Positions 10,661 through 49,428 of a stretch of 64,000 nucleotides of DNA are shown piece by piece. Source of the stretch: Duganella dendranthematis (GTDB lineage Bacteria > Pseudomonadota > Gammaproteobacteria > Burkholderiales > Burkholderiaceae_D); contig NZ_CP051684.1 in NCBI RefSeq assembly GCF_012849375.1, positions 2,418,001-2,482,000 on the forward strand. The letters are read 5' to 3'. Under the pieces are notes generated by a model, which was not told the DNA's origin, made no database searches, and saw only the letters and a list, made by a program, of their open reading frames with translations. How positions within the stretch are numbered: the stretch's first letter is position 1; each line of letters opens with the position of its first letter. Both the position numbers and the translations under genes were made by a program.

Positions 10661-11062
10661 GCACTGAATAACGGCGCATTCTATGGCTCTGCGGGCGCTG
10701 GTCAAATTTCGTCAGCAGCTCGTGCTGACTACGCAGAAGCAGCAGCGGTAGTGCTGACCTCTGATGGCCATGTTGGTAAAACTTACGAACTCGCTGGCGA
10801 TGTGGCATACACGCTCACTGACCTCGCTGCAGAAATTTCGAAGCAGACCGGCAAAGAAATTCCTTATACCAACGTGCCCGAAGCAGATTATGCCGCAGCA
10901 CTAAAAGGTGCTGGTGTTCCCGCCGGTTTTGCCGAAGCGATCGCATCGTGGGATACGGGAGCAGCAAAGGGTGCGCTGTTTGATAATGGTCATCAGCTCT
11001 CCAAACTGCTAGGCCGACCAACCACTACGCTCCAGAACAGCGTCGAACAAGCCCTGGCTTGA
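10637..11062 (+). pseudogene. qorB: qorB/NmrA-type NAD(P)H:quinone oxidoreductase C-terminal fragment
   Basis: From about 10637 the plus strand matches the C-terminal half of the QorB (YtfG) family: ADYAEAAAVVLT, GKTYELAGDVAYTLTDLAAE and LLGRPTTTLQNSVEQAL. The N-terminal Rossmann half with the GxxGxxG motif is missing. The upstream part of this open frame is merely antisense to the glyoxalase fragment. The protein would lack its cofactor site, so this is a truncated remnant. Confidence 0.75.
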
Positions 11063-17722: not shown

Positions 17723-18000
17723 TTATCCCATGGTTATCCGAGGGATATTCCATGCCTTCTCCACAGCTTTATACACAGCGATATTGCGCTGTAAAAAGTT
17801 ATCCTGCACTTATCCGCGCCTTATCCCGCACTTGCTCCAGTGCTTACACACAGAGTTATGCACATTTGCTGAAAAACCGGGCTGGGTGGTGATGACTACG
17901 GCAACATGCAAGCCTTGTATACCTCGCTTGCGAATAAATGGTGTACTTGCACACCTGTTTTCCCACGCTTAATCAGGTCTTACTCACAACGTTATCCACA
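17723..18000 (+). repeat. DnaA-box-like repeat cluster B
   Basis: This 400-base intergenic region has no gene but about ten same-strand TTATNCNCA-like nonamers. Three fit TTATNCACA exactly: 17769-17777, 17856-17864 and 17992-18000. Degenerate ones start at 17723, 17734, 17799, 17810 and 17821. AT-rich sequence containing the Fur box adjoins on the left (17659-17705). It resembles a DnaA-binding region but is not shown to be an origin. Confidence 0.6.
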
Positions 18001-29913: not shown

Positions 29914-29939
29914 AAAGCCGGGTTCGCCCGGCTTTTTTT
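29914..29939 (+). terminator. putA rho-independent terminator
   Basis: A perfect 9-bp stem AAAGCCGGG, loop TTCG, CCCGGCTTT is followed by seven T. It overlaps the stop region of the convergent mtnN. Confidence 0.9.
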
Positions 29940-30624
29940 ACGCCTTGCAGAAATTCTGGATCACATCAAATGCGTAGCGCGAGGCGACGGTTTTGATGAA
30001 ATGCATGAAATCTACCGCAGCGTCATCGTTGGCGTTGTCTGAGATTGTTCTGATCACGGCAATCGGTATTCCCAGCTCAAAACACACTTGGGCGACCGCT
30101 GCGCCTTCCATTTCCACTGCCAATAAATCAGGCAACGCTGCTTTCAGCGTCTGGATCTGGCCCAATTTGCCTATAAATTGATCACCGCTGCCGATCAATC
30201 CGCGATGTACACGCGTGATTGTCGATGCAGCGCCAACCAATCTGTCCGTCAAAGCGACGTCTGTGGCAAAGCTGGACAAGCCGGTCAGCGGAATTTCAAA
30301 TCTTGGAAACAGCGGGCTGGCATCGAAATCATGCTGGATCAAACTATCGGCTACCACGATATCGCCGACTTTCACGTTTTTATCTCCGCTTCCAGCGACG
30401 CCGGTGAAGACGATGTGTGTAACTCCGAACTTTTCCACAAGGATTGCAGCTGTCATTGCTGCAGCAACCTTGCCTATACGCGATAAAACGCACACAGCGT
30501 CGATTTCCCACAGTTTCCCGGCCGTGTACTCCCTCATGCCATGAACGTGCCTGGCGGGGCTCTGAAGGGCCTCTATCAGCCCCTGCTGTTCTTCAGCCAA
30601 CGCACTGATGATGCCTAAACGCAT
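29938..30624 (-). CDS. mtnN: 5'-methylthioadenosine/S-adenosylhomocysteine nucleosidase
   Basis: A 228-residue nucleoside hydrolase that cleaves adenine from MTA and SAH, in methionine salvage and after polyamine synthesis. Seen: start MRLGIISALAEEQQGLIEAL with the catalytic Glu region, GVAGSGDKNVKVGDIV, and LLAVEMEGAAVAQVC with the ribose-binding Met-Glu pair, then the catalytic Asp in RTISDNAND. Two spermidine-pathway genes lie at the other end of the window, which would produce MTA, but they are far away and not coregulated by position. Confidence 0.95.
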   Translation of the reverse strand: MRLGIISALAEEQQGLIEALQSPARHVHGMREYTAGKLWEIDAVCVLSRIGKVAAAMTAAILVEKFGVTHIVFTGVAGSGDKNVKVGDIVVADSLIQHDFDASPLFPRFEIPLTGLSSFATDVALTDRLVGAASTITRVHRGLIGSGDQFIGKLGQIQTLKAALPDLLAVEMEGAAVAQVCFELGIPIAVIRTISDNANDDAAVDFMHFIKTVASRYAFDVIQNFCKA

Positions 30625-30803
30625 GCTTTTCCTTCAAATTTTGAGTTATCGCTGTGGAGATCCAAGGCTTTTTCCACAACGCGTAGCGAAAAAAAGTGAA
30701 TTTTAAGGCGTTTCTTGTGGTCTGTAGGGCTTTCAAACATCAAACAGCCGTCCTATTCCGCCTGCGGCTTTTCCGACGTTATGCTTTTAGTTGTTTACAA
30801 AAG

Positions 30804-31014
30804 GTTTATATAAACATAGTGGTAGTAGTAAACGTGCATATAACTGTGGATAAGTCATGTATACGTTTACAAATCATCTGTTTACAGCGTAAACAACGTG
30901 CTGCATAAGCGCTGTATCAGCTCAGGAACAGTTTTTGGATAAAATAGTGGCCTGTGGTTAAAAGAGGTGCTTAGCCACATCTCATCCTGTGGATATCCAA
31001 TCACTTATACACAG
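30804..31014 (+). repeat. origin-like module, copy 1 (DnaA boxes, GTTTAC repeats)
   Basis: The spacer between mtnN and the GGDEF gene holds a module related to 33024-33243 at a constant offset of 2220-2222 bases. Landmarks: ATATAAACATAGTGGTAGT at 30808, DnaA box TGTGGATAA at 30845, GTTTAC at 30880, GATAAAA block at 30926-30944, TGTGGATAT at 30988 and TTATACACA at 31005. GTTTAC or GTAAAC hexamers also occur at 30793, 30828, 30865 and 30889. A palindrome GTTTATATAAAC begins it. The module runs into the last codons of the GGDEF gene. No gene lies in 30625-31000. Confidence 0.6.
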
Positions 31015-32953
31015 TCTCGGTGTTTTTTTCGCCTGAATTGGCATAATTGCAGCGATTTCGACCCTTTTGCTTGGCGCCATACATCGCTTTGTCGGCGCTT
31101 TTCATCAAACTATCGGCATCCGCACCGTCATGCGGGTATAAAGCGATGCCGATGCTGCTCGAAATTTGGGCAATGTCTTCGCCCAGCTGGAACGGCGCGC
31201 TCATTTTCTTGAGAATTTCCTGCGCAGTGCGCTCGACGTCGGCCGGTTTGCGCAATTCGCTGAGAATCACGGTGAACTCATCCCCACCTAACCTGGCCAC
31301 GATATCGCTGGTGCGCACGCAGCTGAGCAGGCGATTTGCCACTTGTTTGAGCAGCACGTCGCCCTTGTCATGGCCAAGCGTGTCGTTAATTTCCTTGAAG
31401 TAGTCCAGATCGACAAACACCAGCGCCATCGGCAGCTGCGAACGGTCGGTTTTTTTCATTTCCTGGCGTAGATGCTCGTACAGCATGTTCCGATTCGGCA
31501 AGCCGGTGAGGGTGTCGAAGTTGGCCTGGCGCCAGATCAGCTCCTCGGAAGCTTTTTTCTGCGTGATGTCGCTCAGCAAAGCGACGTAGCGGAAGGGATT
31601 GCCTTGCTCATCGTAGACGGCGTTGACCACCATCGAGGCCAGGAACTCCTCGCCGTCCTTGCTTTGTTGCCACAATTCGCCGTTCCAATGGCCCGTATCC
31701 CTCACACACGCAAAAATTTCATCGAAAAATTCCTGATCATGGCGGTGCGAGGCCAATTCGTAGGCACGATGACCGATTAATTCTTTCTCCGTGTACCCGC
31801 TCAGCAGCGAAAATGCCGGATTGATGGTCAGGATCTGGCCATTGGCGTCCACCACCATCATGCCTTCGCCGCTGTTTTGGAACAGTAGCGACGCCAGTTT
31901 CATCGATTCTTCGTTGACCAGCAGCTGGCGTTCCATTTCACGGCTCGCGCTGTACAGCGTGCGGTAACGTAATTCGCGTTCTTCCTGGCGCCTGTAGGTG
32001 CGCAGTGAAAAATGGCCGGCACTGATCATCAGCAACAACAAAATCGCCAGTCCAGCACCGGCAGTCAGGTAGTTTTGTTGCAGCAGACGGTTGGTTTCCG
32101 AGTCATTGCTTCCCACAACGATGATCAACGGCAGGCCATCAATTACGCGATAACTAAAAATCCGGCTCAGGTTGTCGATCACGCTGAAGGTTTTGTAAGT
32201 ACCGGCCTTGGCTTGACGCACGCCGTCGAACAAGGCTGTGTTGCTCAGATCTCGTGCGAAGGCCTGTTCAAAATTGGGCACGCGAGCAATGACTTTGCCG
32301 CCAGCGTGAACCAGCGTGATCGAGATATCCGTATTGAAGCGCGAGTTTTCAAATACTGTGACGTAACGGTCGACGTTGACTGGCGCTGCAACCACGCCCA
32401 GGAATTCGCCGGTGGCCGTTTCTACGCGACGACTGAGGAAAAACAGCCGTTTTTTGCTGATTTTGCCGACCGCAGGTTCGCCAATGAACAGCTTGTCCTT
32501 GTAGCTATTGCTCAAATGGATTTTGAAATAGTCGCGGTCTGCATACGAGGCGCCGATGACGCTGTTGCCGATCGACGTAGCGATCGCGTTGCCTTTCGGA
32601 TCGATAAAAGTGATCCAGTAATCGCTGTTGACATTGGCTCCGCGTGAAGAAAGCAGGTCCGTCATGGTTGTTGGCGAACGACTTTGCTTTGCAGACAGCA
32701 CTTTGATGGCGTTGGCAAAGCTGATCAGCGACAAATCCACCGATTGAATCGAGTACAGCACGTGCGCTTCCATCGCTTTGACGTAATGCTCGGTTTGGGT
32801 TTGGACGGCGAGTTCGCGTTCCAGGTAGGCAGTGCGGAATTGGCTGATGACCACAGCAATGGCAAGTGCTGCCATCGACAACAGGCCAGCGATCAGGCGT
32901 CGTCGAAATCGCAGATAAGCAGGCGACCTGGAGTTTGTGTGTGGTGAGAACAA
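31001..32953 (-). CDS. membrane-bound diguanylate cyclase with Cache, PAS and GGDEF domains
   Basis: A 650-residue c-di-GMP synthase. Order: TM1 (about 18-38), extracytoplasmic Cache-type sensor (about 45-285), TM2 (about 290-310), PAS (about 355-480, MVVDANGQILTINPAFSLLS) and GGDEF (about 485-640). The active-site GGDEF at 556 is intact and the inhibitory I-site RTSD at 547 has the right five-residue spacing, so synthase activity with feedback inhibition is expected; no EAL domain. The start is TTG at 32953 with GGAG upstream. It lies between two related origin-like modules. Confidence 0.93.
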   Translation of the reverse strand: MFSPHTNSRSPAYLRFRRRLIAGLLSMAALAIAVVISQFRTAYLERELAVQTQTEHYVKAMEAHVLYSIQSVDLSLISFANAIKVLSAKQSRSPTTMTDLLSSRGANVNSDYWITFIDPKGNAIATSIGNSVIGASYADRDYFKIHLSNSYKDKLFIGEPAVGKISKKRLFFLSRRVETATGEFLGVVAAPVNVDRYVTVFENSRFNTDISITLVHAGGKVIARVPNFEQAFARDLSNTALFDGVRQAKAGTYKTFSVIDNLSRIFSYRVIDGLPLIIVVGSNDSETNRLLQQNYLTAGAGLAILLLLMISAGHFSLRTYRRQEERELRYRTLYSASREMERQLLVNEESMKLASLLFQNSGEGMMVVDANGQILTINPAFSLLSGYTEKELIGHRAYELASHRHDQEFFDEIFACVRDTGHWNGELWQQSKDGEEFLASMVVNAVYDEQGNPFRYVALLSDITQKKASEELIWRQANFDTLTGLPNRNMLYEHLRQEMKKTDRSQLPMALVFVDLDYFKEINDTLGHDKGDVLLKQVANRLLSCVRTSDIVARLGGDEFTVILSELRKPADVERTAQEILKKMSAPFQLGEDIAQISSSIGIALYPHDGADADSLMKSADKAMYGAKQKGRNRCNYANSGEKNTETVYK

Positions 32954-33023
32954 AACATCTCCGATTGAAGCTGTTTGTTTGACAAGACCAGTATATCGGA
33001 GGTTTTATGGTTTACTCTAAAGA

Positions 33024-33243
33024 TGTAATATAAAAATAGTGATAGTTGTTAACACCGACACTTTTCTGTGGATAACTGCTCATTTTGGATTAAAATCAGC
33101 CGTTTACGAGCTTTATAAACAGTCGCGTAAACCTTGTATGAGCGAAGAACTGTTTTGGGATAAAAAAAGTCGTCCAGAACATTCGTTTGTTTACTCACAT
33201 TTGGCACCTGTGGATATCCATATGCTTATCCACAGCCGTAAAC
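33024..33243 (+). repeat. origin-like module, copy 2 (DnaA boxes, GTTTAC repeats)
   Basis: The 300-base spacer between the GGDEF start and the nitronate monooxygenase start carries the second module. Landmarks: ATATAAAAATAGTGATAGT at 33028, TGTGGATAA at 33067, GTTTAC at 33102, GATAAAA block at 33147-33165, TGTGGATAT at 33209 and a perfect TTATCCACA at 33226. GTTTAC or GTAAAC also occurs at 33010, 33127, 33189 and 33238. Landmarks agree with copy 1 at 17 of 19 positions in the two longest blocks; the intervening sequence is diverged. The promoters of both flanking genes must lie inside it. Confidence 0.6.
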
Positions 33244-33253
33244 AGGGGAATTG

Positions 33254-34291
33254 ATGTCATTAACATCTGTTTTTCCGCATCCCATCGTCCAGGGACCGAC
33301 CGCTGGCGGTTTCAACACGCCCGCGCAAATTGCTGCTGTCTCCAACGCTGGCGGGCTGGGTTCGCTGGCCTGTTCCTTGTTGTCGCCAGACGCGATTCGC
33401 GACCAAACTGCGCAGATCCGCGCGCTCACCGACCGGCCTTTTTGCCTCAATTTTTTCGTTCAGGAGACGCCAAATCCGTCTGCGGATGAGGTGGAACGGG
33501 CCAAAGAATGGTTGAAACCGGCCTGGTCTTCGCTGGGCTGGACGGGGTTGCCGACGCCGGCCAAATGGTGCGAGGATTTCGCGCCGCAATTTGAAACGCT
33601 GATCGCCTTGCGGCCGGCCGTGGCCAGTTTTACCTTCGGCATTCTGACTGTGGAGCAAATCCAGCGCTTGCATGAGGCCGGCATTTTCGTGATCGGCACC
33701 GTGACGCACGTTGATGAGGCGCTGGCCTGGGAAAGCCGGGGCGCCGATGCGGTAATTGCATCCGGCGTGGAGTCGGGCGGACATCGCGGCACCTTCATCG
33801 GCGCACAGGAAAATGCCACGCTGGGAACATTTGAATTGCTGCCTGCCGTAGTGGCGGCGGTGAATATTCCGGTGATTGCCGCCGGTGGCATCATGGACGG
33901 GGCCGATATCCGCCGCGCGCTGGCGGCCGGTGCGCAAGCGGTGCAGATGGGAACGGCGTTCCTGGTCTGTGACGAGTCCAGTATCGGCGCCGCCTATAAG
34001 CAGCGCTTGCTGACGGCCGGTGACCACCCTACTAAATTGACGCGTACGTTTTCTGGCCGCTATGCACGCGGACTGGAAAACCGTTTCATTCAGCAAATGG
34101 CTGCTAACGAACGTTTACTGCCGTTATATCCTGTTCAAAACGCATTAACGTCACCAATAAGAGCCGAAGCGGCCAAACGTGGCGAGACCGAACTGATGTC
34201 GCTCTGGTGCGGCACCGGCGTATCCCGTGCGCGGGCTTTGCCGGCGGCGAAATTGGTGGAGACTTTGCTGGCGGAGATCAGCGCGCAATAA
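33254..34291 (+). CDS. nitronate monooxygenase (2-nitropropane dioxygenase family)
   Basis: A 345-residue FMN-dependent TIM-barrel enzyme that detoxifies alkyl nitronates such as propionate-3-nitronate. Seen: IVQGPTAGGFNTPAQIAAVS and GGLGSL at the N-terminus, ASGVESGGHRG with the catalytic histidine, and AAGGIMDGADIRRALAAGAQ with VQMGTAF for FMN phosphate. The ATG at 33254 has AGGGGA upstream. A GMC oxidoreductase follows after 16 bases, so the two are likely cotranscribed. Confidence 0.92.
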   Translation: MSLTSVFPHPIVQGPTAGGFNTPAQIAAVSNAGGLGSLACSLLSPDAIRDQTAQIRALTDRPFCLNFFVQETPNPSADEVERAKEWLKPAWSSLGWTGLPTPAKWCEDFAPQFETLIALRPAVASFTFGILTVEQIQRLHEAGIFVIGTVTHVDEALAWESRGADAVIASGVESGGHRGTFIGAQENATLGTFELLPAVVAAVNIPVIAAGGIMDGADIRRALAAGAQAVQMGTAFLVCDESSIGAAYKQRLLTAGDHPTKLTRTFSGRYARGLENRFIQQMAANERLLPLYPVQNALTSPIRAEAAKRGETELMSLWCGTGVSRARALPAAKLVETLLAEISAQ

Positions 34292-44915: not shown

Positions 44916-44931
44916 TGTTCCACGTGAAACA
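44916..44931. promoter_or_regulatory. parS site 1
   Basis: TGTTCCACGTGAAACA matches the bacterial parS consensus TGTTTCACGTGAAACA at 15 of 16 positions. ParB, encoded 3.6 kb downstream, is expected to load here. Confidence 0.93.
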
Positions 44932-44976: not shown

Positions 44977-44992
44977 TGTTTCACGTGGAACA
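44977..44992. promoter_or_regulatory. parS site 2
   Basis: TGTTTCACGTGGAACA matches the parS consensus at 15 of 16 positions. It is the reverse complement of a TGTTCCACGTGAAACA site, so the two copies are in inverted orientation with centres 61 bp apart, 90 bp upstream of mnmG. Confidence 0.93.
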
Positions 44993-45081: not shown

Positions 45082-47007
45082 ATGCTATTTCCTACGAAAT
45101 TCGACGTCATCGTTGTCGGCGGTGGTCATGCCGGTACCGAAGCTGCACTCGCTTCTGCCCGCATGGGCCAGAAGACGCTGCTGCTCACCCACAACATTGA
45201 GACGCTGGGTCAGATGTCGTGCAATCCCTCCATCGGCGGTATCGGCAAAGGCCATCTGGTCAAAGAAGTCGATGCGCTGGGCGGCGCCATGGCGATCGCT
45301 ACCGATGAATCGGGCATCCAGTTCCGCATCCTGAATTCCTCCAAAGGCCCGGCCGTACGCGCCACGCGCGCGCAAGCCGATCGTATCCTGTACAAGGCCG
45401 CCATCCGCGAGCGCCTGGAAAACCAACCTAACCTGTGGCTGTTCCAGCAGGCAGTGGACGACCTGATCGTGGAGGGCGACCGCGTGGTCGGCGCCGTTAC
45501 CCAGATCGGCCTGAAGTTCCTTGCGCCAGCGGTGGTGCTGACCGCCGGCACTTTCCTCGACGGTAAGATCCACGTCGGCCTGAACAGCTACTCGGGTGGC
45601 CGCGCCGGCGATCCGCCAGCCGTATCGCTGTCCGCGCGCCTGAAAGAATTGAAGCTGCCGCAAGGCCGTCTGAAGACCGGCACGCCGCCGCGCATCGACG
45701 GCCGCAGCATCGACTTTACGCAGATGACCGAACAGCCGGGCGACCTCGATCCGGTGCCGGTGTTCTCGGTGATGGGCAATGCCGCCATGCACCCTGAGCA
45801 AATGCCTTGCTGGATCACGCATACCAACCAGCAAACCCACGACATCATCCGTGGCGGCCTGGACCGCAGTCCGATGTACACCGGCGTGATCGAAGGCGTC
45901 GGCCCGCGTTATTGCCCGTCGATCGAAGACAAGATTCACCGCTTCGCGTCGAAGGAATCGCACCAGATTTTCCTGGAGCCGGAAGGCCTGACCACGCACG
46001 AATTCTATCCAAACGGCATCTCCACCAGCCTGCCGTTCGACGTGCAGATCGCGCTGGTGCGCTCGATGAAAGGCCTGGAAAACGCCCACATTCTGCGTCC
46101 TGGCTATGCGATTGAATACGATTACTTCGACCCGCGTGGCCTGAAAGCATCGCTGGAAACCAAGGCTATCAATGGCCTGTTTTTCGCCGGCCAGATCAAT
46201 GGCACCACCGGTTACGAAGAGGCTGCGGCACAAGGTCTGCTGGCCGGCGTCAACGCCGCGCTGCAAACTCAGGGCCGTGGAGCCTGGACGCCAGCCCGTT
46301 CGGAAGCCTATCTGGGCGTGATGGTAGACGACCTCGTCACGCAAGGCGTGATGGAGCCGTACCGCATGTTCACCAGCCGCGCCGAGTACCGCCTGAGCCT
46401 GCGCGAAGACAACGCCGACATGCGCCTGACCGAAATCGGCCGCAAGCTGGGCGTGGTTGGCGATGCGCAGTGGGAAGCCTTCGACCGCAAGCGCGAGTCG
46501 GTTGGCCGCGAACTGGAACGGCTGCGCTCCACGTGGGTGAACCCGCGCATCCTGGAAGCGGCTGAGTCCGAACGCGTGATTGGTCAGGCCATCGAGCGGG
46601 AGTATTCGTTGGCCGATTTGCTGCGCCGTCCCGGCGTTGCCTACGACACGCTGATGACGCTCAAAGGTACTGACGGCCGCGAGCTCGCAGGTCCGGGTGA
46701 GACTGATGAAGCGGTCAAGGAACAGATCGAAATTCAGCTCAAATACTCGGGCTATATTGATCGCCAGACCAAGGAAGTCGAGCGCCACGAGCACTACGAA
46801 AACCTGAAATTGCCGGAAGGTTTCAGCTATCTGGACATCACCGCGCTGTCGGTGGAAGTGCGCCAGAAGTTGCACGCGCAGCGTCCGGAAACGCTGGGCC
46901 AGGCATCGCGTATTTCTGGTGTGACGCCGGCGGCGATTTCGCTGCTGCTGGTACACCTGAAGAAGGCCGGATTCGGCGGTTTTTTGAATAAAGAAGAGGC
47001 AGCATGA
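45082..47007 (+). CDS. mnmG: tRNA uridine-5-carboxymethylaminomethyl(34) synthesis enzyme
   Basis: A 641-residue FAD protein that, with MnmE, modifies U34 of tRNAs reading split codon boxes. Seen: [20 protein letters not shown] dinucleotide-binding motif, the MnmG signature GPKYCPSI in the variant [15 protein letters not shown], and [15 protein letters not shown] near the middle. The C-terminal helical domain binds MnmE. It starts 90 bp after parS 2, overlaps rsmG by four bases (ATGA) and heads the mnmG-rsmG-parAB block. Confidence 0.98.
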
Positions 47008-47666
47008 AGGTGTTTAACCGCGAAGTAGTAGCGGATGTTCTGAAACAAGGCATCAAGCAGCTGCCCTTGCAGCTGAGCGAGGAACAGGTAGAAAAGCTGC
47101 TGGACTACCTGGCCCTGCTGAACAAGTGGAATTCGGTCTACAACCTGACCTCGGTGCGCGACCCCATGGAAATGGTCAAGCTGCACCTGCTGGACTCGCT
47201 GGCGGCCGTTCCGGCGTTCGCGGGGGCGTCAAATGTACTGGATGTCGGGGCAGGGGGCGGATTGCCGGGCGTGGTGCTGGCGATTAGCCGGCCGGATATG
47301 AAATTGTCGATGATCGACACGGTGCACAAGAAGACCGCCTTCCTCAATCAGGTGAAGGCGGAGCTGGAACTGGGCAATGTGACGGTGTACACCAAAAAGG
47401 TGCAGGAGCTGGAAGTGAAGACCAAGTTCGACGTCATCACCTCCCGGGCGTTCGCCGACCTGTCGGACTTCGTCAACTGGTCCGGGCACCTGCTGGCGGA
47501 GGGCGGCCAGTTCATCGCCTTGAAAGGCACGGCGCCGGCGGAGGAGCGAGAGCGACTGCCAGCACCATGGAAAGTGCAGAAACTGGAGCCTTTGGCAGTG
47601 CCGGGGCTGGACGCAGAACGCCACCTGGTATTCATCCAGGCTGATGAAAACGCAGAAACAGTATAA
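47004..47666 (+). CDS. rsmG: 16S rRNA (guanine(527)-N(7))-methyltransferase
   Basis: A 220-residue SAM methyltransferase acting on G527 of 16S rRNA; its loss gives low-level streptomycin resistance in other bacteria. Seen: [30 protein letters not shown] and the SAM motif [17 protein letters not shown], then TSRAFADL. It overlaps mnmG in ATGA. Its last codon falls inside the first palindrome of the array before parA. Confidence 0.97.
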
Positions 47667-47740
47667 ACGGTTTATACGGTATAAATGGTTTATATCAAAT
47701 AAATAGTATAAATCGTTTATATCGTTTATACCGTATAAAT
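47661..47740. repeat. array of four 17-bp GTATAAA/TTTATAC palindromes before parA
   Basis: Four 17-bp palindromes or near-palindromes with half-site GTATAAA occupy 47661-47677, 47679-47695, 47706-47722 and 47724-47740. Centres are at 47669, 47687, 47714 and 47732, spaced 18, 27 and 18. The first is perfect apart from its centre base (GTATAAACGGTTTATAC). The array ends 28 bp before the parA ATG. It could be the parA operator, a promoter with cooperative repressor binding, or an easily melted element. Confidence 0.75.
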
Positions 47741-47768
47741 CAAAAGCATCAACACACATAAGAATTAC

Positions 47769-48539
47769 ATGGCAAAAATTTTTTGCGTAGCAAATCAAAA
47801 GGGCGGCGTAGGCAAGACCACCACCACAGTCAACCTGGCCGCCGGTTTGGCAAAACTGGATCAGCGCGTATTGCTGGTCGATCTAGACCCGCAGGGCAAT
47901 GCCACCATGGGTGCCGGCATTAACAAGGCGGGCCTGCCTTCCTCGACCTATGAAGTGTTGCTCGGCACCGCCGACGTGGCCACCGCGCGCCAGCGTTCGG
48001 AGCCGGGGCACTTCGACGTGCTGCCGTCCAATCGTGAGCTGGCCGGCGCCGAAGTCGAGATGGTGGAACTGGACAACCGCGAACGCCGCCTCAAGGACGC
48101 GCTGGCGGCTGTGGATAAGCAGTACGATTTCATTCTGATCGACTGCCCGCCGGCGCTGTCGATGCTGACGCTGAACGGCCTGTGCGCCGCGCACGGCGTG
48201 ATCATCCCGATGCAGTGCGAGTACTACGCGCTGGAAGGGTTGTCCGATCTGGTCAACACCATCAAGAAGGTGCACGCCAACCTGAACCCGGACCTGAAGA
48301 TTATCGGCCTGTTGCGCGTGATGTTCGATCCGCGCATGACGCTGTCGCAGCAGGTGTCGGCGCAGCTGGAGCAGCACTTCGGCGACAAAGTCTTCAAGAC
48401 CATCATCCCGCGCAATGTGCGCCTGGCGGAAGCGCCGTCGTACGGCGTACCGGGCGTCACCTTCGATCCGACCTCCAAGGGTGCGCAGGCGTATATCGCC
48501 TTCGGCGCCGAGATGGTCAAGCGCATCAAGAAAATGTAA
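47769..48539 (+). CDS. parA: chromosome partitioning ATPase ParA
   Basis: A 256-residue deviant Walker-type ATPase that moves ParB-parS complexes away from the pole. Seen: ANQKGGVGKTTTTVNLAAGL (deviant Walker A), LVDLDPQGNATMG (Walker A') and ILIDCPPALSMLTLNGL (Walker B). It lacks the N-terminal helix-turn-helix of plasmid type Ia ParA, so a bare chromosomal Soj type. It precedes parB by 19 bases and follows a palindrome array. Confidence 0.98.
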   Translation: MAKIFCVANQKGGVGKTTTTVNLAAGLAKLDQRVLLVDLDPQGNATMGAGINKAGLPSSTYEVLLGTADVATARQRSEPGHFDVLPSNRELAGAEVEMVELDNRERRLKDALAAVDKQYDFILIDCPPALSMLTLNGLCAAHGVIIPMQCEYYALEGLSDLVNTIKKVHANLNPDLKIIGLLRVMFDPRMTLSQQVSAQLEQHFGDKVFKTIIPRNVRLAEAPSYGVPGVTFDPTSKGAQAYIAFGAEMVKRIKKM

Positions 48540-48558
48540 GGCATAGGTAGGCACATAC

Positions 48559-49428
48559 ATGGCAACTAAAAAATTCAAAGGCCTGGGTCGCGGCCTGGAC
48601 GCGCTGCTTGGCGGCGATAGCGATCTGACCACGGCGGACGCCAACACGCCGTCCGAACTGCCAGTGAGCAAAATGCAGGCTGGTAAATATCAGCCGCGTA
48701 CCCGCATGGACGAAGGTGGCCTGCAAGAGCTGGCCGCCTCGATCAAAACCCAGGGCATCATGCAGCCTATCCTGGTGCGTCCGGTCGGCAAGGACAAATA
48801 CGAGATCATCGCCGGCGAACGCCGCTTCCGCGCCGCCCAGCTGGCTGGACTGGACATGCTGCCGGTCCTGGTGCGCGATGTCGACGATCAGGCCGCCGCC
48901 GCCATGGCGCTGATCGAGAACATGCAGCGCGAGGATCTGAATCCGCTGGAAGAGGCGCAGGGCATCCACCGCCTGATCACCGACTTCAGCTTCACCCACG
49001 AGCAGGCGGCCACGGCGGTCGGCCGCTCGCGCAGCGCGGTGTCCAACCTGCTGCGCCTGATGAACCTGGCGTCGCCGGTGCAAACCATGCTGATGGCCGG
49101 CGATATCGACATGGGCCACGCGCGCGCGCTGCTGTCGGTCGACGCCGCCACCCAGATCAACCTCGCCAACATGGTGGTTGCCAAAAGGTTATCGGTGCGC
49201 GAAACCGAGAAACTGGTTTCCAAAACCTTGGAAGAACTGCAAGCTTCGCCAAAAGAAGCCCGCGTCAAGGAAAAGTCCGGCGACATCTCGCGCCTGGAAG
49301 AAGAGCTGTCCGACAAGCTGGCCACGCCGGTGGTCTTCAAGATGGGCGCCAAAGGCCGCGGCCAGATGATCATCGATTTTGCCGACCTCGACATCCTCGA
49401 CGGCGTCCTCGCCCGCCTGCGCGCCTAG
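48559..49428 (+). CDS. parB: chromosome partitioning protein ParB
   Basis: A 289-residue parS-binding CTPase. N-terminal CTP-binding domain with the box II motif GERRFR (86-91), central helix-turn-helix (QAATAVGRSRSAVSNLLRL seen around 151-170), and a C-terminal dimerisation domain ending in DLDILDGVLARLRA. The two parS sites upstream of mnmG are its expected nucleation sites. It is the last gene before a hairpin and the atp operon. Confidence 0.98.
   Translation: MATKKFKGLGRGLDALLGGDSDLTTADANTPSELPVSKMQAGKYQPRTRMDEGGLQELAASIKTQGIMQPILVRPVGKDKYEIIAGERRFRAAQLAGLDMLPVLVRDVDDQAAAAMALIENMQREDLNPLEEAQGIHRLITDFSFTHEQAATAVGRSRSAVSNLLRLMNLASPVQTMLMAGDIDMGHARALLSVDAATQINLANMVVAKRLSVRETEKLVSKTLEELQASPKEARVKEKSGDISRLEEELSDKLATPVVFKMGAKGRGQMIIDFADLDILDGVLARLRA

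Follow-up and report, generated by a model that had tools for sequence, protein, structure and literature searches.

Tandem oriC-like modules around a diguanylate cyclase gene as the probable replication origin of the Duganella dendranthematis chromosome

A single origin of replication is taken as the norm for a bacterial chromosome, and the locus described here raises the question of what two related modules of about 225 bp, both carrying DnaA boxes and set in the same direction on either side of a gene for a c-di-GMP enzyme, are doing on one chromosome. The window (the whole stretch of 64,000 nucleotides that was analysed) is part of a single 6,532,782-bp contig, and positions refer to the window unless they are given as genome positions. 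An earlier reading of the letters alone, the original prediction, had proposed a replication or DnaA-titration element. From the evidence presented below, the two modules are very probably the oriC of the chromosome, and the region can be read, with a probability of roughly 0.6, as a chromosomal replication origin built as a tandem array of origin units.

Anatomy of the two modules

The features of the locus and its surroundings are the following:

29938..30624, minus strand: MTA/SAH nucleosidase gene (MTN), left neighbour
30653..30678, plus strand: what is probably left of the terminal pair from a third module (left) that was lost, relatives having three modules
30793..31013, plus strand: module A, complete oriC-like unit, grouping with the middle unit of three-unit arrays
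30817..30831, plus strand: DnaA-trio-like repeats of module A, TAG at -28, -22 and -19 from R1
30845..30853, plus strand: perfect DnaA box of module A (R1 equivalent)
30872..30884, plus strand: IHF-like site of module A, differing from WATCARNNNNTTR at one position and lying 27 bp from R1
30988..31013, plus strand: terminal inverted DnaA-box pair of module A, TGTGGATAT ... TTATACACA
31001..32953, minus strand: gene between the modules, for a dCache-PAS-GGDEF diguanylate cyclase, which overlaps the last DnaA box of module A at its 3' end
33010..33234, plus strand: module B, complete oriC-like unit, right-hand, identified by DnaA boxes, trio/IHF anatomy and tree
33037..33053, plus strand: DnaA-trio-like repeats of module B, TAG at -30 and -24 from R1
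33067..33075, plus strand: perfect DnaA box of module B (R1 equivalent)
33094..33106, plus strand: IHF-like site of module B, exact WATCARNNNNTTR, 27 bp from R1
33209..33234, plus strand: terminal inverted DnaA-box pair of module B, TGTGGATAT ... TTATCCACA
33251..34291, plus strand: nitronate monooxygenase-family gene (NMO), right neighbour, ATG at 33254
44916-44931 and 44977-44992, no strand assigned: two perfect parS-like sites
45082..49428, plus strand: mnmG, rsmG, parA and parB

When module A is aligned locally with module B the score is 74, whereas 1000 dinucleotide shuffles of B reach at most 33, and the best match to module B elsewhere in the 64-kb window is module A. Six landmarks had been predicted to recur in the same order in both modules at offsets of 2220-2222 bases, and this was borne out. 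They include a first block at 30808/33028 (17 of 19 positions identical), TGTGGATAA at 30845/33067, AAATCAnnnGTTTAC at 30871/33093 (13/15 identical), GGATAAAA at 30937/33158, TGTGGATAT at 30988/33209 and TTATNCACA at 31005/33226, while the GATAAAA block is identical at 9 of 11 positions, counted on a shorter string than the 19 of the original prediction. The five GTTTAC/GTAAAC hexamers claimed for each module are present (10 of the 19 in the window), but the aligned genus modules (52 of the left type and 46 of the right type) share only two common hexamer positions between both types, at the edge of the DUE (-52/-58 from the R1 box) and at +35, within the IHF-like block, so the shared count of five is partly coincidence.

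Read rightward, each module presents an AT-rich stretch, TAG repeats, a perfect TGTGGATAA box, AATCAnnnnnTTTA at +27, a GGATAAAA box, TGTGGATAT and, 17 bp further on, an inverted TTATNCACA; the distal DnaA boxes end in this inverted pair, which lies about 142 bp from R1 in each module. The outermost 30 bp are 80-83% AT in both modules, and the trio-like repeats of module A sit inside the AT-rich stretch 30793-30841. In both modules the TAG repeats correspond to 3'-GAT-5' reading away from the DnaA box, which fits the definition of DnaA-trios in the available text of PMC6669920 and resembles the basal unwinding system described there (DnaA box plus DnaA-trios), with the difference that here the combination is found two or three times in tandem. 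Judged from its sequence, each module would combine an unwinding element, rich in AT and bearing the DnaA-trio-like repeats, with a perfect DnaA box, a bend site of the IHF type and distal boxes. AATCAnnnnnTTTA matches the IHF consensus exactly in B and with one mismatch in A, and an exact consensus anywhere in a module was obtained in a fraction of 0.036 of 2000 base-shuffled modules. DnaA boxes are clustered as in a chromosomal oriC: module A contains six with at most one mismatch in 250 bp, the densest cluster among the window and 80 sampled loci of the same genome, and module B contains three by the same count. Neither module has GATC sites, hence control by Dam/SeqA is not expected. The module profile matches both A and B, having been built partly from them, and Rfam gave no match within the window at gathering scores.

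This arrangement can be set beside oriC of E. coli, which lies in the order mnmG-oriC-mioC. There too an AT-rich element stands left of a forward TGTGGATAA box, GATCAA is spaced exactly 27 bp from R1, just as AATCA is here, and a forward box occurs at +141, compared with +142/143 in the modules. With help from the review PMC10380432, we take this GATCAA to be part of IBS1 and the forward box at +141 to be R2. As with mnmG and mioC, the left neighbour is transcribed away from the locus and the right neighbour is transcribed into module A. The E. coli origin differs in being one unit instead of two or three, and the modules differ from it in their lack of GATC sites; its locus gave no match to the module profile, and the rule that finds the IHF-like sites here, agreement with the consensus but for at most one mismatch, finds none there. 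By analogy with E. coli oriC, DnaA is predicted to load at the first box of a unit and to spread onto the trios, while IHF would fold the distal boxes in.

Position of the modules on the chromosome

The terminal pairs of the modules are at genome positions 2,448,988 and 2,451,209, and dnaA (2,040,674) is 409 kb away from them; adjacency to dnaA is common for oriC and is not required, as E. coli illustrates. A GC-skew analysis, suggested along with the original prediction, places the modules at the skew switch. A two-arm model fitted to 406 four-kb pieces (1.62 Mb of the genome, overlapping partly in one place) breaks at 2.40 Mb and at 5.66-5.76 Mb, and a dif-like site with two mismatches is found at 5,703,495. 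With the terminus fixed at this site, dlogL is -1.8 at 2.45 Mb, -9.7 at 2.35 Mb, -22.8 at 2.20 Mb and -23.2 both at 2.30 Mb and at dnaA. A second genome (G042) agrees weakly, its best skew break being at 420 kb and its modules at 414 kb with poor resolution (500 kb costs only 1.0, hemE 4.5). The modules also lie opposite dif: in the present genome the point opposite the dif-like site, its antipode, is 13 kb from them and 396 kb from dnaA, and in 14 of 14 complete genus genomes (three lengths rounded to 0.1 Mb) the antipode is missed by 3-66 kb by the modules, by 121-283 kb by hemE and by 263-449 kb by dnaA. Chi polarity is best at 2.415 Mb (modules -1.9, dnaA -5.5). Boxes of the form TTATMCACA number 49 genome-wide, of which 17 fall within 2.35-2.49 Mb and four in the modules. 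The nearby parS and parAB of the original prediction are indeed there, with perfect parS-like sites at 44916 and 44977 and parA/parB at 47769-49428, the mnmG-rsmG-parAB group lying 12-16 kb from the modules.

The skew values at 2.20 Mb, at 2.30 Mb and at dnaA, together with the distance of hemE from the dif antipode in all 14 genomes, also bear on the view that replication really starts at dnaA, or at a group of DnaA boxes next to hemE, and that the modules are titration sites. They make it very improbable, as does a profile search that finds no module-type element at dnaA or hemE, even though DnaA boxes do occur beside hemE, in G042 too, and a putative hemE-side origin in Ralstonia pickettii is listed by PMC4403523. 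KOPS polarity, whose change-point is best at 2.26 Mb (modules -3.6, dnaA -3.9) and which in G042 also flips nearer hemE, speaks for such a view on few sites, too sparse to place an origin. In our judgement, the skew and dif evidence outweighs KOPS and the hemE-side cluster. The gap of about 100 bp after dnaA of this genome contains no module, and none was found in the other sampled loci of the genome.

Other groups of DnaA boxes were noticed along the way. Upstream of hemE, a gene assigned by family, there are two palindromic DnaA-box arrays (G000:C1:2245550-2246240; L198:5561-6240), the other neighbour of which reads as priA, and arrays like these occur in G042 at 210210-210830; they are possibly a titration site, a promoter control or an old origin. 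At G000:C1:4204199-4204545, distant from origin and terminus, a stretch of 350 bp contains three perfect TTATCCACA boxes that all point the same way, and positions 17757-18000 of the window, the gap that separates the gene of an ECF-type sigma factor from a hexapeptide/nucleotidyltransferase gene, carry four DnaA-box-like sites, also in one orientation.

Conservation and history of the units, and the gene between them

Alignment with related genomes, which the original prediction had named as a check, shows that the landmarks are conserved. In a sample of 60 genus genomes, which includes Duganella, Rugamonas and Pseudoduganella records, the core pattern of the terminal pair is present in 59, and in at least two places in 57, with no hits for a reversed-pattern control; it is absent from one genome (G006, 83% complete) and single in two (G008 and G056). 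In 47 genus loci, 98 of the 101 core hits are preceded at 140-143 bp by a TGTGGATAA R1 box, the remaining three being the left remnant, which was omitted from the module alignment. AATCA stands exactly at +27 from R1 in 103/105 modules of 50 genus loci, but in only 157 of the 265 modules in 120 named loci of all genera, many Massilia modules being without it. In the wider family the strict pattern is found in 54 of 145 genomes. The order PutA-MTN-modules-NMO-GMC is retained in many relatives, and among the 71 named loci with both flanking genes, selected by module match up to a capped number so that absence is outside the count, two modules are present in 33 and three in 38. Three units are common in Massilia and Janthinobacterium, and all six named Undibacterium loci show two strong profile matches. 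The profile did not bear out a pattern match in Oceanirhabdus (L085), which was taken as chance.

Identity to seven relatives ranges from 80 to 100% for module B and from 75 to 99.6% for module A. The GGDEF and NMO genes are both less conserved than module B in 7/7 relatives; with module A this holds for the GGDEF gene in 7/7 and for the NMO gene in 6/7. Each module is less conserved than the compared part of the MTN gene in 3/7; both exceed the spacer between MTN and module A in all seven. The proposal of a selected architecture for the locus is supported.

The relation of the modules to known origins was approached with a sequence-only model built from 54 modules, which matches 150 of 300 genomes of the order. 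Besides the own locus, 29 loci were fetched, eight from this family and 21 from other families of Burkholderiales. In 10 of these 21, those for which the dnaA context was judged within fetched flanks of only 1.5 kb, the match lies between dnaA and the next gene, whose product is presumably DnaN as read from its protein sequence. These matches in the dnaA-dnaN gap indicate that the modules belong to the oriC sequence family. The dnaA-dnaN origins of other families are thus alike in being matched by a model made from these modules, and different in that the origin here stands well apart from dnaA. There is a precedent for such separation in chromosome 1 of Cupriavidus metallidurans, with a skew switch about 90 kb from dnaA according to the available text of PMC2864759. 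Within the family, one genome (G063) has a single module near mnmG-rsmG-parAB and another (G072) has none by the model; outside the family there are weak second matches, several of them about 275 bp apart, which serve as leads only.

The copies appear to be old positional lineages. In a tree of 54 of the 91 listed module hits, the same 54 as in the model, the right-hand units of Duganella, Massilia and Janthinobacterium mostly cluster (62/57 overall, better within), the exceptions being the right unit of L065, placed elsewhere, and one middle unit of L126, inside the right-hand group; the deepest splits are poorly supported. Module A of the window falls with the units that stand in the middle of three-unit Janthinobacterium arrays (100/98). 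The position labels require 11 changes on the tree, compared with 24.5 in shuffles, and are therefore clustered and not of single origin. These positional groups support the statement of the original prediction that no recent duplication is involved; a recent duplication, tried as an explanation, is contradicted by the tree. We read the ancestral array as one of three units, of which the left one decayed here to 30653-30678, where no R1 box was found upstream.

The gene between the modules of the window lacks the EAL domain present in two orthologues (L025 and L072), and this domain was probably lost from the form in the window; short frames are seen in four other relatives as well. Its stop codon is placed within -34 to +14 bp of the start of the last box of module A in 27 of 27 loci, and this placement means that the gene reads into module A from the side where mioC faces E. 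coli oriC. A transcriptional influence on module A is possible. PADLOC returned nothing for the GGDEF protein. Of 170 loci, the 114 with both flanking genes were counted, some species twice, and 59 of them have no match to the GGDEF gene between the last two modules. In one locus (L063) the interval contains genes for a MocR-like regulator and a LysE-like protein instead, and in Massilia sp. Bi118 (L188) a TnpB-like gene lies between the second and third modules (translations read by eye in both cases). Duganella margarita, whose NMO protein is 96% identical, keeps only a decayed remnant of the gene between intact modules. The idea that the c-di-GMP gene is a specific partner of the origin was rejected on account of this absence, replacement or decay in relatives that keep the modules; the gene has the look of a passenger and is most likely an insert that is tolerated. 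Duganella callida (L105), with a spacing of 796 bp, may be a case like D. margarita. Two or three units across the family, a third unit decayed here and a dispensable c-di-GMP gene all lay beyond the reach of the original prediction.

A proposed origin in tandem units and its alternatives

The reading as an origin is supported by the skew switch, the symmetry with dif, the conservation across genera with rigid internal spacing, and the occurrence of the same sequence family after dnaA in other families. What each unit contributes has several possible answers. Under the preferred one, a tandem array, each unit would open independently, and the array would improve the robustness or the timing precision of initiation, here with two units left and a third decayed, and in relatives with two or three. 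What the computations show is the position of the origin, the make-up of the units, their conserved multiplicity and the dispensability of the gene; binding of DnaA and IHF, unwinding and the firing of either unit alone are things we infer. The +27 offset of the IHF-like site, which is not universal outside the genus, counts against this reading, as do the KOPS polarity and the hemE-side cluster.

The divergence of the copies into position-specific groups suggests that their roles may differ, and with the unequal hexamer positions of A and B, the six DnaA-like boxes in 250 bp of A compared with three in B, and the higher conservation of B in 5/7 relatives, it would suit a division in which one unit is the firing origin and the other a DnaA-binding copy for titration or timing. 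This is rather unlikely, since the spacing from R1 and a DnaA-trio-like element are kept in both modules, as is, within the genus, the offset of the IHF-like site, none of which a titration site would need. A datA-type site, described in the available part of PMC10380432 as DnaA boxes and an IHF site without an unwinding element, would likewise differ from both modules, each of which carries a putative unwinding-type element. Two DnaA-box clusters around a spacer gene are also what is seen in the bipartite origins of Bacillus subtilis and Helicobacter pylori, and the accessible text of PMC4285127 describes spacer genes between the subregions of such origins; by this comparison the clusters would act jointly, through DnaA looping across the spacer gene. 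The same text, however, assigns the DUE to one subregion, whereas an AT-rich, trio-bearing candidate element stands in both modules here, and the spacer is not dnaA, varies or is missing, with up to three units in a row. The last two units are 333 to 3571 bp apart and the units may number three, while intra-unit spacing is rigid. Because all elements are kept in both units and spacing is rigid within and free between them, autonomous units fit better, and a looped bipartite origin seems distinctly improbable. That the second module is a recent or neutral duplicate can be given hardly any credence: the modules do resemble each other, but the positional groups are common to several genera and both modules surpass the MTN-module A spacer in conservation in every relative compared.

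The tandem array may be extended to a broader and more tentative proposal, to which we give somewhat less than even odds: a bacterial family that, across several genera, initiates chromosome replication from a naturally tandem array of two or three oriC units which are complete, evolve separately and can each fire. Since the units here lack GATC sites, the basis of Dam/SeqA control, some other rule would have to restrict the array to one start per cell cycle if this reading is true. Bacterial chromosomes with a second origin or origin-like region have been described: a single-chromosome strain of V. cholerae with two functional origins is cited in the available part of PMC10225481, a tandem duplication carrying oriC appears for M. 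bovis BCG in a literature listing, and the double origins of PMC4403523 are duplications including dnaA, or sites 150-882 kb apart. None of these is described, in the parts of the sources at hand, as a conserved row of small units, and no description of tandem oriC units in this family was among the matches listed by a literature search that reached few subscription journals and drew on sources other than DoriC; the available text of PMC4948915 was also among the literature drawn on. A conserved tandem array, if real, would be a natural system for testing once-per-cycle control, DnaA dosage and the redundancy of units, which could be removed one by one.

The present results suggest that the replication start in Duganella-group genomes should be looked for at this locus and not at dnaA, where the record begins in 3 of the 14 complete genomes, and the same probably applies to the search for the start in Massilia and Janthinobacterium. 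Elements resembling the modules occur in another arrangement in two loci of family f31 (L292 and L293), where two of them, some 3 kb from each other, have opposite orientations; in L292 (7662-7901 on the minus strand and 10814-11061 on the plus strand) they have two long frames between them.
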